DNA of 64,000 nt from Candidatus Nitrosomarinus catalina (GTDB lineage Archaea > Thermoproteota > Nitrososphaeria > Nitrososphaerales > Nitrosopumilaceae), in NCBI RefSeq assembly GCF_002156965.1, contig NZ_CP021324.1, forward strand, positions 818,681 to 882,680, given 5' to 3'. Position 1 is the first letter of the stretch. The number at the start of each line of letters is the position of its first letter. Shown piece by piece: positions 1,683-32,898 of this stretch. A program made the translations under genes and the position numbers. Below the pieces are notes generated by a model. That model did not search any database, was not told the origin of the DNA, and worked only from the letters and a program-made list of their open reading frames with translations.

Positions 1683-1777
1683 ACAATAATTCCTTTTTTG
1701 ATTAACTTAAAATTCTTGTCACAAAAATTACGCACAGAACATATTTCTTGATATACTGGATAAAATATCTACAAACA

Positions 1778-2743
1778 TTGACAGAAATATTGAAAATAGA
1801 ACATTTAAAAAAATATTTCATTAAAAAGAAAATTTTTTCATCAGAAACTTCCACAGTTAAAGCTGTAGATGATGTCTCATTTTCATTAAAACAGGGGGAA
1901 GTTTTTGTATTGGCAGGAGAATCAGGTTCTGGAAAATCAACAATAGCAAAATTAATTTTAAAATCAATTAAAGCAGATTCTGGAAAAATTATTTTTGAGC
2001 AGGAACACACAGATGATCAAAAAAGAAATTTAGAAAAAATTAGAATGAATTGTCAAATGATTCATCAAGATCCATATGATTCAATTAATCCCAGAATGAG
2101 AATTAAAGATATCATTTCCGAACCACTTGAAATTCATAATATTATGAATAAAGAGGAAATAAACAATAGAGTAATTCAAGTATTAAAAGAAGTTAAACTA
2201 GAACCAGCTGAAGAAATTAGTAGAAAATATCCGCATATGCTATCTGGAGGGCAAAGGCAAAGAGTAGTTTTAGCTAGAGCATTAGCAATTAAACCAAAAA
2301 TCATTTTAGCTGATGAACCAGTATCAATGCTAGACGTATCAATTAGAGCTGAGGTGTTAGAATTAATGAGAGAGTTACAAAAAAAATACAATATTTCATT
2401 TATCTACATTACACATGATTTGGCAACAGCCAAATATTTTGGTCAAAATATTGGAATTTTATATTTAGGGAAAATTGTGGAGAGAGGTCCAATTAACCAA
2501 GTACTAGATAGCCCAAAACACCCATACACTCAGGCATTAATTGATGCAATTTCAGAACCAAATCCTGAAAATTTAAACAAAGATAGAGTGATCAGGATTA
2601 AAGAAACAACAGGAGTTAAAAAAAACGAAGGATGTAAATTTAGAGATAGATGCCCATATGAAATTGAAAAGTGTTCAGTTGAACCAAATTTAGAAGAAGT
2701 AGGAAATGAGCATTATTCAGCATGTCATGTTAAAATCAGCTAA
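1778..2743 (+). CDS. Oligopeptide/dipeptide ABC transporter ATP-binding protein (OppF/DppF type)
   Basis: An ABC ATPase of about 321 residues. Walker A (GESGSGKST), the Q-loop region (MIHQDPYDSINPRM), the signature LSGGQRQRV and Walker B (IILADEPVSMLD) are all intact, followed by the oligopeptide-transporter C-terminal extension with three cysteines (CKFRDRCPYEIEKC). It should energise peptide or metal-chelate uptake. The frame is open upstream to a TTG at 1748, but similarity to the family begins near ILKIEHLKKYF, so TTG at 1778 or 1790 is more likely. No permease is adjacent; a possible binding protein lies far away at 27886. The stop overlaps that of smc by four bases (CTAA). Confidence 0.85.
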   Translation: MTEILKIEHLKKYFIKKKIFSSETSTVKAVDDVSFSLKQGEVFVLAGESGSGKSTIAKLILKSIKADSGKIIFEQEHTDDQKRNLEKIRMNCQMIHQDPYDSINPRMRIKDIISEPLEIHNIMNKEEINNRVIQVLKEVKLEPAEEISRKYPHMLSGGQRQRVVLARALAIKPKIILADEPVSMLDVSIRAEVLELMRELQKKYNISFIYITHDLATAKYFGQNIGILYLGKIVERGPINQVLDSPKHPYTQALIDAISEPNPENLNKDRVIRIKETTGVKKNEGCKFRDRCPYEIEKCSVEPNLEEVGNEHYSACHVKIS

Positions 2744-24567: not shown

Positions 24568-26316
24568 ATGGAAAAGGAACAAGACGACGTTTCAAGTATT
24601 CACAACAGATTTTCACTTACTCTAGTTAATCCAGGGTCGCATTATTTTTCATTAGCTGCATCTATGGGAGTAGGATTAGTAATTGTACTTGCAACATATT
24701 TTGGATATTTTAACAACTTAGGTATCGAAGAATTTTGGTACAGAATCCCAATGGTGTTAGGAGTATTAGCAATAATACAAGTTCTAGATACAAGATTTAC
24801 AAAGAAAAAAGAATATTCAAAATCATTACATTCATCATTATTTGGAAATATGCTTTGGGTAGTTACCATTCTAATGGGAATATTATCAAGTGTAGTACTA
24901 GGAAAAAATATTGAATTATTTTTTATTACTTTTGGAATGATTTTATTTGCAAGTTTCAGAATAGGAATTTACACAACAACATTAGGATTAAGCCTAAAAA
25001 AAGCATGGGCCATTGCATTCATTCAACCATTAGCAATGTTCTTTGTATTGATTCCACAAGAATCATGGTATACAATACTTAGTGAACCATTAGGAATAAT
25101 CTACGGATTTGCATTTTGGATTATTGCAACTGTATGGTCACGAACGACAGATAGAGCAGGTAGACCAGGAATGGAAAGTACCCACAAAACCATTCAAGCA
25201 TATCTTGCATCACAAGGAAATGATTTTGAAGATGCTGAAGAATTAATGGAACAACATGCAACTGAAACAAAAGTAGGAACTTCACAAATCAAATTTTCAT
25301 CCAAAGATGGATCCAATGAATTCCGCATGGTGTTACCAGAAATACATCCAGGTCCATATCATCCAGTAGGCGGTAGCAATATCCCATATCTAATTTATAA
25401 AAATTTGGAATCATCAGCAATGGTAATGCATAGTATTTCTGATCATGCATTGAATTTACCATCACGAAATGAAGTGAATAATTATTTGAAAAATTTAGAA
25501 AATAGTGTTGTTAAAGAAGAAGGAATGACTTGTACAGAGCCAGTAATAGTTCAAATCAATAAAGCCAGAGTAACGGGAATGCTTTTTGGAAATAATCCAT
25601 TACTAATGCTTTCATTGTCACCACACGGAATGGAAGACATTCCAAGTTACATCAAAAAAGAAATTGAGCAATATGGAAAGAATAGAAATTTTACAAAAAT
25701 TATGACTATTGATTGTCATAATGCAATGGGGGAAGAAATTTCAAGTGAAGATGGCGAAGACTTGTTAAAAGCTACAAAATCATGTTTGGACTCACTAATT
25801 ACAAAAGATAGCTTTCCAATTGAATTAGGGTATGCAAATTCAAATGACATGGATGTATGGACTGAAGATCTTGCAAAAGGAGGGTTAGGAATTACTTGTT
25901 TAAAGATAAACAATAAAAAATATTTTCTGGGATGGGCAGATGCAAACAACATGGAAAATGGAGTTAGAGAGAAAATAATTAAAAACTTTGAAGATGAAGG
26001 ACATAATTTATTAGAAATTTGTACATCAGATACACATTATGCAGCAGTTAAAGCTAGAAATAGAAATGGCTACTATCAACTAGGACTAATAACCAGTGCA
26101 GACAAACTTTCAAAATGGTTTTTAGAAATTGCAGAAAATGCAGTATCAAAAATATCATCAGCAAAATATGAAATTTTAGAAAATGAGACACAAGTTAAAG
26201 TCATGGGTCAAAGCATCTATGAAGATTATTCAAAAGCTTTAGAGAATTCATTAAGAATTACCAAAATGTTTGTTATTGGAGGACTAGGGTTATTCATCAC
26301 TAGTCTTTTTCTATAG
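24568..26316 (+). CDS. DUF2070 family membrane protein
   Basis: About 582 residues. The N-terminal 200 residues carry six or seven membrane helices; the C-terminal 380 residues are a soluble domain with a MVLPEIHPGPYHPVGGSNIP motif, a MTIDCHNAMGE motif with possible metal-binding Asp/His, and a conserved-looking CTSDTHYAAVKARNRNGYYQ. This is the archaeal DUF2070 architecture, of unknown function; His/Asp-rich motifs suggest a hydrolase-like site. ATG at 24568 chosen because a TTG upstream would overlap secG. Overlaps the opposing nuclease-like gene by 17 bases. Confidence 0.85.
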   Translation: MEKEQDDVSSIHNRFSLTLVNPGSHYFSLAASMGVGLVIVLATYFGYFNNLGIEEFWYRIPMVLGVLAIIQVLDTRFTKKKEYSKSLHSSLFGNMLWVVTILMGILSSVVLGKNIELFFITFGMILFASFRIGIYTTTLGLSLKKAWAIAFIQPLAMFFVLIPQESWYTILSEPLGIIYGFAFWIIATVWSRTTDRAGRPGMESTHKTIQAYLASQGNDFEDAEELMEQHATETKVGTSQIKFSSKDGSNEFRMVLPEIHPGPYHPVGGSNIPYLIYKNLESSAMVMHSISDHALNLPSRNEVNNYLKNLENSVVKEEGMTCTEPVIVQINKARVTGMLFGNNPLLMLSLSPHGMEDIPSYIKKEIEQYGKNRNFTKIMTIDCHNAMGEEISSEDGEDLLKATKSCLDSLITKDSFPIELGYANSNDMDVWTEDLAKGGLGITCLKINNKKYFLGWADANNMENGVREKIIKNFEDEGHNLLEICTSDTHYAAVKARNRNGYYQLGLITSADKLSKWFLEIAENAVSKISSAKYEILENETQVKVMGQSIYEDYSKALENSLRITKMFVIGGLGLFITSLFL

Positions 26317-26935
26317 TTTTCATTTCTTCAATATTTCCATAAAATTCATCTATAAATGAAGAAAATTGAAAAATAGGCACAATAGGAACTTTGTCTATAA
26401 AATCAATCTTATCCTGATACAAAGTAACAATCACAGGCACAGCCATTGATCCTTCAGTCTTTGCAACATATTGTTTAGTTCTTTCAATTTGCTTTTTTAC
26501 TGCAGATGCTAGTGAAGAAGAATTGTATCTTTTCCAATGTTTACAATCAATCAATATTGCAATACCTAAACGAATGCCAACAACATCAATTTCCATTCTA
26601 GGCTTTGTCAGCATCATATTTTTAATTACAGCAAAATTTTTTGAGGATAATATTTCTGCAGTTAATCCTTCAAAATCCCTCCAATCCAATACAACTGAAA
26701 TCTCATCTAAAGGAAATCCATTTTCAAGTAAAGTCATTGCAATTTTTAATTTATCACCATCTTCAAAAAAATAAAAATTATCTTTCAGAGTTCCAATTCC
26801 ATTATTTAATAAATTATTTAAAATATTTTCAGAGTCAATAGAACTAATCTGAGTGACAGTAGAGAAATCCTTTACAGATACACCACCAGAAATTATTCCA
26901 TTCAGACCTTGAATCATTTTAGGATGAGTTTTCAA
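26300..26935 (-). CDS. PD-(D/E)XK (Mrr-like) nuclease-fold protein
   Basis: A 211-residue protein. Residues 1-85 look like a winged-helix region; residues about 86-190 have the restriction-endonuclease fold: DWRDFEGLTAEIL helix with Glu, then EIDVVGI and LIDCKHWKR, giving the E...D...DxK-type catalytic set (Glu, Asp, D-C-K). It could act in DNA repair or as an Mrr-like enzyme; no methylase or other restriction subunit is adjacent. TTG start; ATG six codons later. Confidence 0.75.
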   Translation of the reverse strand: MKTHPKMIQGLNGIISGGVSVKDFSTVTQISSIDSENILNNLLNNGIGTLKDNFYFFEDGDKLKIAMTLLENGFPLDEISVVLDWRDFEGLTAEILSSKNFAVIKNMMLTKPRMEIDVVGIRLGIAILIDCKHWKRYNSSSLASAVKKQIERTKQYVAKTEGSMAVPVIVTLYQDKIDFIDKVPIVPIFQFSSFIDEFYGNIEEMKTIEKD

Positions 26936-27885: not shown

Positions 27886-30345
27886 ATGAAAAAAATGCTA
27901 GTGATATTACTAGCGCTTTTAGTTATAGCAATAACATACAATGAATCATTTGCAGAAAAAAGTACCCATGTAAATTCAATAAAATTTATTCAATATTTAG
28001 ACGAGAATACAGCATTAGAGGAAGTAAAAAATGGAAATTTGGATTTATATTATTATAGAATTTCACCAGATAGATTAGAAAATGAACAAAGTGCAGAAGG
28101 ACTAAAAATTTATGATTCAACAGGAGGATCATATAGCTTACTAATCAATCCAGCAGAATCCGAAAAGTTTAATCCATTTTCAGAAAAAGATGCAAGATTT
28201 GCCTTAAATTATCTAGTAGATAGGAAATTAATTGTAAATGAATTGATGGGCGGATATGGCTCTCAAATTATATCCTATTACGGACCGACAGATCCAGAAT
28301 ATCTTACAATAATCAAAGAATTAGAATCATTTAATTTTAAATACAATCCGACATTGGCAAATAAAATAATCTCAGAGTCAATAATGGAGAGAGGAGTAGA
28401 AAAAATTAATGGAAAATGGGTAAAAAATAATGAAGAAGTAGAAATTAGTATTTTTATCAGAAGCGATGATCCAGTTAGAAAATCTATTGGAGAAATACTA
28501 GCTAAAGAGCTAGACGATATGGGATTTAAAATTAAAAAAGACTACGGGGATTTGAATAAAGCATTTGTTGTAGTTTATGGTTCAAATCCAGCAGACATGA
28601 ATTGGAATTTATACACAGAAGGATGGGGTCGTTCTGCATTTGTAAAATATGATTCAATTGGATTAGGTCAAATGTACTCACCATGGTTTTCAAACATGCC
28701 AGGTTTTAATGACCCATCATATTGGAATTATGAAAATAAAAGATTAGACGAATTAACTCAAAAAATCTACAAAGGAGATTTTGAATCTTCAGAAAAAAGA
28801 TCTGAATTAATTCAAGAAGCAGTGGTAGAAGGAATTAATGAGTCAGTAAGAATTTTTTTGGCAAGTAAAGTTGATCAATACGTAGTTAATCAAAATGTAG
28901 AAGGAGTAGTTAATGATTTAGGAGCAGGGATACCAAGTCGATTTACACCAATTAATGCAAAAACAAATGACGAAGAATTAACCATCGGAGTTAAACAAAT
29001 CTATCAAGGGGCATGGAATCCAATAATGGGTTTAACAGATACATACAGTAGACAGATTTGGGGAATTATTTCAGACCCCATTACATTTAAGCATCCATTT
29101 ACAGGTGAAACATTTCCAGTTCGAGCACAGTGGGAAGTAGAAACATCAGGATTAGATAAAAAAATCAATGTTCCTACAGAAGCAAAAATGTGGAATCCAA
29201 CAGTACAGAAGTGGGAAAAGGTGTCAACTGAAACATTTGCAACAAGCAAAGTTACATTTGACTTTAAGTTCAGTAATTGGCACAACGGAGAGGCAATGGA
29301 TATGAATGATATTTTACATTCATTGTATTTTACTATAGAGTGGGGCACACAGATAGATGAAAAAGACAAAACGTTTGATACAGAATTCACGCCAAGAGCG
29401 GCTCAAAGCATTCAAACAATAGTTGCAATTAACGAAATTGACAAAGACACAGTAGAAGTATATGTTAATTATTGGCATTTTAATGAAAATGAAATTGCCG
29501 AATGGGCTGCTATGTGGAGTCCAGTTCCATGGGAATTAACTGCAGCTATGGAAAAAGCAGTGATAGATGGAAAAGTATCATTTTCAAGATCAGGTGCTAC
29601 AAGTAAGAGTGTGAATTGGTTATCATTAATTGTTCCAAATGATGCACAAATTATCAAAGAGTATTTGAAAGAATTTAGAGATAATGAATTCATTCCAAAT
29701 TCATTAAAACAAAGTCAGAAACAACAACAATATTTTGATGACAGATTTGATTCATCAATAAAATGGATTGAAAAAAAGAATCATGCAGTAATTAGTAATG
29801 GGCCATTTTATTTAGAGACATACTCACCAGAATCAAGAACAATTTTAGTAAAAGCATTTGAGGACAAGTCATATCCATTTGAAATTGGAACATGGTCAAA
29901 ATTTGAAAATATGCAATTTCCAAGCATCAAAAAAATCAACATAGAAAAAATAATTCAGCAAGGAGAATTTACTCAAATCGACATAGAAACTGAGGGAGTC
30001 ACATCAATACTATATTTCATATTAGACAGCGAAGGACAAATTCAGATATCAGAAGAATCAGAAATTAATGAAAATGAATTAAATATTAAGCTCACATCAG
30101 ACATTACAAAAAAATTGCAAGTAGGAACTAACCAAATCAAGATATTTGGAATCTCAAATTCAGTTTTAAAACCAGATATTTATGAAACTAATTTCATAGT
30201 AACAAACGAAAAATCAGAAATTCCAAAAACTGAAATCAATTTCCAAAATATTGAAAATGAAATAAGTTATGATATTGGGATAATTGGAATGACAGTAGTA
30301 GCAATAATGATTGGAATTACAATATTTCTAAAAAAGAGATTTTAA
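27886..30345 (+). CDS. Peptide/nickel-type ABC substrate-binding protein with circularly permuted motif order, membrane-anchored
   Basis: An 819-residue secreted protein. Residues 1-23 are a signal peptide. Residues about 30-360 match the second half of the SBP_bac_5 (DppA/OppA) family: DENTALEEVKNGNLDLYYY (39-57), FALNYLVDRKLI (about 105), the PxxA-like half-helix regions and KRSELIQEAVVEG. Residues about 362-690 match the first half: TIGVKQIYQGAWNP (366), VTFDFKFSNWHNGEAM (456) with the DILHSLYF helix, and GPFYLETYSPESRTILV (639). The order is thus C-half then N-half. An Ig-like domain and a C-terminal helix (793-813) with KKRF anchor it outside the cell. No permease is adjacent. ATG start. 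Confidence 0.85.
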   Translation: MKKMLVILLALLVIAITYNESFAEKSTHVNSIKFIQYLDENTALEEVKNGNLDLYYYRISPDRLENEQSAEGLKIYDSTGGSYSLLINPAESEKFNPFSEKDARFALNYLVDRKLIVNELMGGYGSQIISYYGPTDPEYLTIIKELESFNFKYNPTLANKIISESIMERGVEKINGKWVKNNEEVEISIFIRSDDPVRKSIGEILAKELDDMGFKIKKDYGDLNKAFVVVYGSNPADMNWNLYTEGWGRSAFVKYDSIGLGQMYSPWFSNMPGFNDPSYWNYENKRLDELTQKIYKGDFESSEKRSELIQEAVVEGINESVRIFLASKVDQYVVNQNVEGVVNDLGAGIPSRFTPINAKTNDEELTIGVKQIYQGAWNPIMGLTDTYSRQIWGIISDPITFKHPFTGETFPVRAQWEVETSGLDKKINVPTEAKMWNPTVQKWEKVSTETFATSKVTFDFKFSNWHNGEAMDMNDILHSLYFTIEWGTQIDEKDKTFDTEFTPRAAQSIQTIVAINEIDKDTVEVYVNYWHFNENEIAEWAAMWSPVPWELTAAMEKAVIDGKVSFSRSGATSKSVNWLSLIVPNDAQIIKEYLKEFRDNEFIPNSLKQSQKQQQYFDDRFDSSIKWIEKKNHAVISNGPFYLETYSPESRTILVKAFEDKSYPFEIGTWSKFENMQFPSIKKINIEKIIQQGEFTQIDIETEGVTSILYFILDSEGQIQISEESEINENELNIKLTSDITKKLQVGTNQIKIFGISNSVLKPDIYETNFIVTNEKSEIPKTEINFQNIENEISYDIGIIGMTVVAIMIGITIFLKKRF

Positions 30346-30867: not shown

Positions 30868-32898
30868 TTACTGTATAGTTTTGTAAGTTACTTTATAATA
30901 AAATCTAGAAATCTCACTATCTTTTAAGACCTCAACATTCCAGTTTGTATCAGGCAAGAAATCTTCAGAGGATTGAGGTAAAATACTAAATTTTTCAAGT
31001 CGCACATCAGGGCCAGAATATCTCACATTAAGATTCATTCCATCAAGTTGGATTACTTCAAAAATTTGTCCAGGTTTTCTAGTGGATTCACTTACTAGAC
31101 AATCAGAATTCTGACCAATGATACAAATTCCAGATGCAGATAAAACTTGTAAATTCACTTTAGAGATATCAGTTTTTGATGGAGTAATCATAGAACCAGA
31201 TAAAACTCTAGGTTGTACAGATTGTTCTTCAAGAATTTTATCTGTAGTCTCAATAGAGATTAAACTGTCTGAAATTCGATTAGTTTTTTCAATCATAGTT
31301 TTTACACTAGATACAGCATATCCTCCTGCATCTTTTTCTTCAGAAACAGATTGTTTTCCAGGAATTGAAGCATTGGGATTACCATCGCCAAGGGTTTTAT
31401 CAATTGCAAAATCTTCGTTAGAGATTACAGAAAAATTTTCTGATGCCAGTAATCCACCATAATTAGCTTTTACAATATAATCACCAACAGGAAACATTAC
31501 AGAAGGGATTCTAACATCTACAGCAAAATTCCCATAAACGTCAGGTACAGCAGTAGAAGTGAAAAGAATTTGTTGTGCACCAGCAGAATTATCCATTATT
31601 GCACTAGTAAAAGCGATAGGCTTTCCATCAGAAGTGTAAAAATTCAGATATACTACTTGATAGTAAATATCACTATCGGGATCAAAGTTTGGAAGTATTC
31701 CAGAGATTTTTACATAAGCATTTTCAACATATTGAAAATCATCTAAAGTGAAAATCATCTCATTAGAAGAATCATCAGTTACAATTTCAATGGTTTTTTC
31801 AATTAAAGAAAATTTGGTAGATGAAATATGTTCACCATATTCAGCAGTGATGATGTATTCACCAAATACCGGAATAGCAGAATTAATTGAAATGATCGTA
31901 TCAAATTCACCATCTACAGTAAACAGACTTCCGCTATCAATTTGTTTACCAGTAGGATCTAATATAGTAAATTTCATACTCTCATATGGAATTATTTCGT
32001 TAGTTGTTCCAGTAAGTAAGATTGTTTGTTTAAGAAAATATTCATTTTGATCAACACCAATTTTAAAAACAGAATCCACAGTTTCGGTAGTTTCAATCAT
32101 TTTAGATTCAACAGAAAAACTAGTAGTTTCAGAAACACCAGCATAAGTTACAGTCACATCATAAGTGCCTTCAGAAATTCCCATAACTTGAACTAAGTCT
32201 AAACTAGTTTCATAATTTAGATTGTAATCAGGATATAATGAAACAGATTGTTGAAAATCAGGACCAGAAATAGTTATTGAAATAACTGCTGCTTGAAAAG
32301 TAGGAATTTCTACAAAAACTTTTTCTGAAACAGTTCCTTGAATTATCGTAGTTTCATCAAATACATAATTTGCTTTATCAGTAGATAACGTTACTTCAAC
32401 TGCAGAAGTATTATCAGATGACATTAATTTACCATTTGAACCACCAGCGTTACCAAGAGAGAATTCCCAATCAGTATGACCATCATAACTTCTCTGCCAG
32501 GACATAAAATCATTTTTCAAATCAGTAATTTCAGGGGTTTTATCAATTACATTACCAGAAGAATTTCTTAATTCTACAGATTCAGATGAATCAGTAAACC
32601 AAACTTTAGTGTAAGTGAATGGCAATATTTGTTCAGGAGAAATTATAGTTCCATCAGGAATTGTAAATGTTTTTTTCAAAACAGTGGTCGAAGCAATTTG
32701 CCAACCACTCAAATCCACATCAGAATCAGTAGGATTGTAAAGCTCTACCCATTCAGAAATTGCAAGAGAGTCATCACCAAAAGGATTAGTGTCAACCTCA
32801 TTAATTACAACATGATCAGTTATCAGTTCACCATATGCAGGAACGGAAATCATAGTAACTAGTACTGCAATTATTACAAGTAGGGGAGAGCGATTCAT
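30868..32898 (-). CDS. Secreted lamin-tail-domain surface protein
   Basis: A 676-residue exported protein. A signal peptide covers residues 1-23; residues about 28-150 form a lamin-tail domain (VVINEVDTNPFGDDSL, EWVELYNPTDSDVDLSGWQI, SVELRNSSGNVIDK, SWQRSYDG). Three or more Ig-like/big beta domains follow, each with a FKIGVDQNEYFLKQTILLTG-like strand pattern. Two Cys occur near residue 590. No C-terminal membrane helix or sortase tag is visible. Probably a cell-surface or secreted adhesin-like protein. Confidence 0.75.
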   Translation of the reverse strand: MNRSPLLVIIAVLVTMISVPAYGELITDHVVINEVDTNPFGDDSLAISEWVELYNPTDSDVDLSGWQIASTTVLKKTFTIPDGTIISPEQILPFTYTKVWFTDSSESVELRNSSGNVIDKTPEITDLKNDFMSWQRSYDGHTDWEFSLGNAGGSNGKLMSSDNTSAVEVTLSTDKANYVFDETTIIQGTVSEKVFVEIPTFQAAVISITISGPDFQQSVSLYPDYNLNYETSLDLVQVMGISEGTYDVTVTYAGVSETTSFSVESKMIETTETVDSVFKIGVDQNEYFLKQTILLTGTTNEIIPYESMKFTILDPTGKQIDSGSLFTVDGEFDTIISINSAIPVFGEYIITAEYGEHISSTKFSLIEKTIEIVTDDSSNEMIFTLDDFQYVENAYVKISGILPNFDPDSDIYYQVVYLNFYTSDGKPIAFTSAIMDNSAGAQQILFTSTAVPDVYGNFAVDVRIPSVMFPVGDYIVKANYGGLLASENFSVISNEDFAIDKTLGDGNPNASIPGKQSVSEEKDAGGYAVSSVKTMIEKTNRISDSLISIETTDKILEEQSVQPRVLSGSMITPSKTDISKVNLQVLSASGICIIGQNSDCLVSESTRKPGQIFEVIQLDGMNLNVRYSGPDVRLEKFSILPQSSEDFLPDTNWNVEVLKDSEISRFYYKVTYKTIQ

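Follow-up and report, generated by a model that had tools for sequence, protein, structure and literature searches.

Along the chain of the bacterial binding proteins DppA, OppA, AppA and NikA (SBP_bac_5 family, PF00496), the elements of the family stand in a fixed order, and these proteins are soluble or N-terminally lipid-anchored. A gene of Candidatus Nitrosomarinus catalina, located within a stretch of 64,000 nucleotides of contig NZ_CP021324.1 (positions 818,681 to 882,680; hereafter the window), raises the question whether a protein of this type can occur naturally with its late elements placed before the early ones and, if so, whether it can still serve an importer. The host genome comprises 1.36 Mb on a single contig. 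The open reading frame, which starts with ATG, was confirmed, and the nearest public relative found is a protein of Nitrosopumilus sp. MED-G94 with 93% identity. Along the chain, DENTALEEVKNGNLDLYYY (from about residue 39) and FALNYLVDRK (about 105) are followed by TIGVKQIYQGAWNP (from about 366), WHNGEAM (about 465) and GPFYLETYSPESR (about 639), and all motifs quoted in a preliminary description of this DNA are thus present in the order given there. The parts of the protein and the genes related to it are listed in Table 1. Two further genes of the window lie on its minus strand. One encodes a protein of 676 residues that looks secreted and combines a Lamin Tail Domain (PF00932) with repeated beta-rich segments (30868-32898), the other a 211-residue protein with a weak match to Mrr-type restriction endonucleases, which is below the cut-off (26300-26935).

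Table 1 Parts of the permuted binding protein and related genes. Positions refer to the window unless a locus is given
Feature	Position	Strand	Basis
Whole gene, permuted SBP_bac_5 protein, 819 aa	27886..30345	+	ORF, Pfam and PDB sequence matches
Signal peptide, residues 1-23, cleavage after about SFA	27886..27954	+	Hydrophobic segment 1-19; start conserved among relatives; cleavage site by inspection
Segment A, residues 24-360, canonical mid-to-late part placed first	27955..28965	+	Matches 7fi3 323-619 and Pfam profile 136-349
Junction of the former C- and N-termini via a short linker, about residues 352-372	28939..29001	+	Position inferred from match ends
Segment B, residues 363-675, canonical early part placed second	28972..29910	+	Matches 7fi3 18-309
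C-terminal beta-rich spacer domain, residues 676-792 (~110 residues)	29911..30261	+	Without Pfam match
C-terminal TM anchor, residues 797-815, then KKRF (basic tail)	30274..30330	+	Predicted TM segment
DppF/OppF-type ATP-binding subunit (ABC_tran and oligo_HPY), probable partner	1748..2743	+	Orthologue shares operon with permuted SBP in relatives
Canonical-order homologue	L342:7877-10123 (G510)	n/a	Half-profiles read B then A
Long-loop DppC of the host genome	L288:7521-8888 (G000 C1 528.5-529.9 kb)	n/a	TM spacing

Evidence for a circularly permuted chain

The protein matches the SBP_bac_5 profile with 94.4 bits, well above the curated cut-off of 32.4, and is named here a permuted form of this family because the late part of the profile comes first and the early part second. 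Among solved structures, 7fi3_A stands out in a phmmer search of the PDB, in which the query aligns in two pieces of swapped order, residues 372-664 with 18-309 of 7fi3 (i-E 6e-29) and residues 30-299 with 323-619 (i-E 1e-19). This structure, in which according to its PDB description the OppA protein of Thermococcus kodakarensis holds an endogenous pentapeptide, is the closest solved relative by sequence and by fold (about 27-33% identity per half) and differs from the query in its canonical chain order. When the halves of the query are exchanged, a single match results, residues 11-589 to 7fi3 18-618 (E 2e-53), which is unbroken at the rejoined cut, and the two Pfam stretches of the native chain likewise become one (profile 28-349, 100.6 bits). 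The un-permuted query also aligns in one piece with a canonical-order homologue of 748 residues from the same phylum (L342 in Table 1; residues 71-731, 205 bits), and both halves of the fold are therefore present, as judged from the coverage of 7fi3 residues 18-618 and of L342. The order proposed previously, opposite to that of DppA and OppA, and the permutation-aware alignment suggested as a check on it agree with these results: each segment occurs in a single copy, the order is rotated, and the alignment is continuous only after rotation. Judged by its sequence, the protein is a complete binding protein of the OppA/DppA type with a circularly permuted chain.

Structure prediction had been proposed as a further check, and it answers in part. 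AlphaFold models of the full-length protein (pLDDT 63) and of the ectodomain only (pLDDT 73, pTM 0.69) are of middling confidence overall and least confident in segment A. The best PDB match of both is again 7fi3, to which the ectodomain model aligns with an rmsd of 2.2 over 295 columns, corresponding to one half of the protein, because Foldseek does not align across a permutation. The models thus point to the same relative, with a superposition covering one half; preservation of the canonical fold, with A packed on B, is a presumption.

Distribution and origin of the permuted order

A phylum-wide sample of 299 genomes was searched with the family model, which gave matches in 192. For classification of the order, this model was split into A (residues 24-360) and B (residues 363-675) and applied to open reading frames, and A preceded B in all 213 homologous frames carrying both halves (some genes entered this count under two locus ids). 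These frames range from those of Nitrosopumilus to those of remote members of the phylum. Close relatives have the permuted order throughout. Identity to distant lineages drops to about 25-30%, and the swap is therefore probably old. The homologue search, which had been suggested for thaumarchaea, consequently showed that the permuted order extends beyond them across the phylum sampled. A search with the 7fi3 sequence revealed rare homologues of canonical order, which come from two members of a single genus (genomes G510, locus L342, and G513, locus L343). The half-profiles read both of these as B then A, so the classifier can see both orders. A third genome of this genus (G519, locus L344) has the permuted form.

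For an artefact, that is, a misassembly, a wrong reading frame or a chance likeness of motifs, nothing speaks except the oddity of the order itself, and this reading is refuted to practical certainty by the recurrence of the same order in many independent assemblies across the phylum (213/213 frames) and by the shuffle control against 7fi3, in which shuffled halves reached at most 23-25 bits compared with 115 and 98 bits for the real halves, each of which matches significantly (1e-19 or better). Alternatively, the protein could be a fusion of two partial binding proteins or form domain-swapped pairs, so that A and B would pack on the halves of another molecule, which would fit the moderate confidence of the models. 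This is highly improbable, as each segment is found once, A and B are complementary parts of one known fold, the un-permuted halves give one alignment that runs through the cut without a gap, and the linker joining the old termini is short.

With respect to the origin of the circular permutation, the proposed route by duplication and trimming was not borne out: profiles of the start of A compared with the tails and of the end of B compared with the heads gave nothing significant, and no leftover duplicated segment was found (hits of the start of A to the heads are due to the overlap of the cut-outs and are not remnants). The 7fi3 sequence scores 57-230 bits against un-permuted members of the family, and a 7fi3 search among 20 canonical binding proteins of the same class found none. 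In a tree of binding proteins, 7fi3 and the permuted family form one side with a support of 99. In quick trees, 7fi3 and L342 are placed among or beside the permuted rows with long branches and weak support, and monophyly of the permuted sequences is compatible with the AU test (p 0.19). A tblastn search in plasmids gave weak bacterial hits only.

Membrane anchor, partner genes and putative function

The C-terminal membrane anchor that had been assumed for the protein is supported by a predicted transmembrane segment (Table 1). A clear segment of this type is present in 195 of the 212 permuted frames with a readable tail, most of the remaining ones being truncated or just under the cut-off. 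L342 has an N-terminal transmembrane helix followed by a Thr/Pro-rich linker and no clear C-terminal segment. Chain order and tethered end therefore go together in the permuted family and L342, a correlation whose canonical side is one lineage. The earlier suggestion that the new position of the termini may favour a C-terminal anchor gains from this correlation and is limited to the same extent by the single canonical-order lineage available for comparison. The bacterial proteins DppA, OppA, AppA and NikA, to which the protein is similar by its Pfam match and by Foldseek (E below 1e-5), have neither the C-terminal spacer nor the transmembrane segment.

In the host genome, the permuted protein is the only SBP_bac_5 member, and the parts of a Dpp/Opp-type importer, two permeases (BPD_transp_1) and two oligo_HPY ATPases, are present in dispersed form: one DppB-DppC pair at about 528.5-531 kb, one ATPase at 478 kb and the other within the window (Table 1). 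The other two permease hits were assigned by inspection to other ABC types; they lie in small clusters close to a candidate binding protein. At the distant loci examined, the gene of the permuted protein mostly adjoins those of DppB and DppC, often together with both ATPases. The dppABCDF parts of such an operon are dispersed to at least four places in the genomes of the host and other Nitrosopumilaceae, and all of them are kept. Among 300 genomes of the class, 272 have both SBP_bac_5 and oligo_HPY proteins, 11 have neither, and 12 and 5 have one only, a co-occurrence (Fisher p 1e-10) that counts any SBP_bac_5 protein and treats the genomes as unrelated. The 12 genomes with oligo_HPY ATPases and no SBP_bac_5 profile hit include G098, a 99% complete genome of the same genus on a single contig with two such ATPases. 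Apparently, the importer encoded there either works with a different binding protein or has lost its own. Neither SBP_bac_5 nor oligo_HPY proteins were found in two 0.8-Mb genomes of the same family (G155 and G174) and in most f13 genomes, which is consistent with a loss of the whole importer.

The protein is very probably a natural circular permutant of the substrate-binding subunit of a peptide-type ABC importer, with the role of DppA or OppA. Its former C-terminus would be joined to its former N-terminus via the short linker, and the cut that gave the new termini would lie between a hairpin, GPFYLETYSPESR, and a strand, SIKFIQYLDENTALEE. The signal peptide would direct export of the protein, the C-terminal helix would tether it behind the beta-rich spacer, and the two lobes would close on a peptide-like ligand, which may then be delivered to DppBC in a step powered by the two oligo_HPY ATPases.

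An orphan surface sensor or adhesin that has kept the binding fold and plays no role in import could explain why the gene stands alone in Nitrosopumilus and why G098 and some other genomes have the ATPases without an SBP_bac_5 hit. We regard this as very unlikely in view of the orthologues located within dppABCDF operons, the matching DppB, DppC and two ATPases kept by the host genome, which has no other SBP_bac_5 protein, and the 11 genomes in which SBP_bac_5 and the ATPases have been lost together. More weight is given to the possibility that the ligand is a sugar, a metal complex or another compound that is not a peptide. Several Opp/Dpp-type systems carry such compounds, the ligands of SBP_bac_5 proteins are diverse, the Foldseek matches include NikA and binders of chitooligosaccharides, and Dpp-type systems for oligosaccharides are known in archaea. 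The endogenous pentapeptide held by the closest solved relative argues against this possibility, and a non-peptide ligand is the less probable alternative, although clearly a more serious one than the sensor or adhesin. A permuted substrate-binding subunit for peptide-like ligands thus remains our preferred reading.

The predicted external loop of DppC and relation to known systems

The DppC permeases encoded beside permuted binding proteins (L268-L287) and the DppC of the host genome have a gap of 205-255 residues between the first two transmembrane segments, TM1 and TM2 (368 in one case), compared with 38-58 residues in 20 DppC proteins encoded beside canonical binding proteins of the same class. 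Where TM1 had been split in two by the TM caller, the gap was counted from the second piece, and the DppC of L301 (608 aa), which has an over-long start overlapping DppB, was read by its TM spacing. No Pfam match was obtained in the long stretch, which by the usual topology would be located outside the cell. The two kinds of DppC, both of which occur at locus L276, separate cleanly in a tree based on conserved core columns alone (support 100/98). The operon of L342, which like those of many permuted relatives contains DppB and both ATPases, also encodes a long-loop DppC (190 residues). The loop as a consequence of the permutation was therefore rejected; it marks the archaeal OppA type. It is possible, and we propose it tentatively, that archaea have a distinct importer architecture made up of the permuted OppA with its C-terminal tether and of DppC with its 200-residue loop. 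In this architecture, the binding protein would be held and docked in an orientation that differs from that of the solved Opp/Dpp systems, and the loop would act as an extra docking domain.

Circular permutation of binding proteins is familiar from biosensors, which are engineered and not natural, and, judging by titles and abstracts, papers that pair the two terms deal with biosensors or unrelated work. In agreement with the preliminary description, a literature search that covered few subscription papers found no paper describing an SBP_bac_5 protein that is permuted in nature. Ordinary domain annotation hides the rearrangement, since databases report an SBP_bac_5 hit and do not flag the swapped order. 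The chain of a classic transporter protein has here been rewired in evolution, apparently with its job kept, and a large, two-lobed transport protein that is stably permuted throughout a phylum represents an experiment of nature that can tell whether folding, tethering and docking depend on the order of the chain. In its long loop, DppC offers a specific and testable candidate docking feature of the peptide-type importers of archaea, among them those of marine ammonia oxidisers, which are abundant and may use organic nitrogen.
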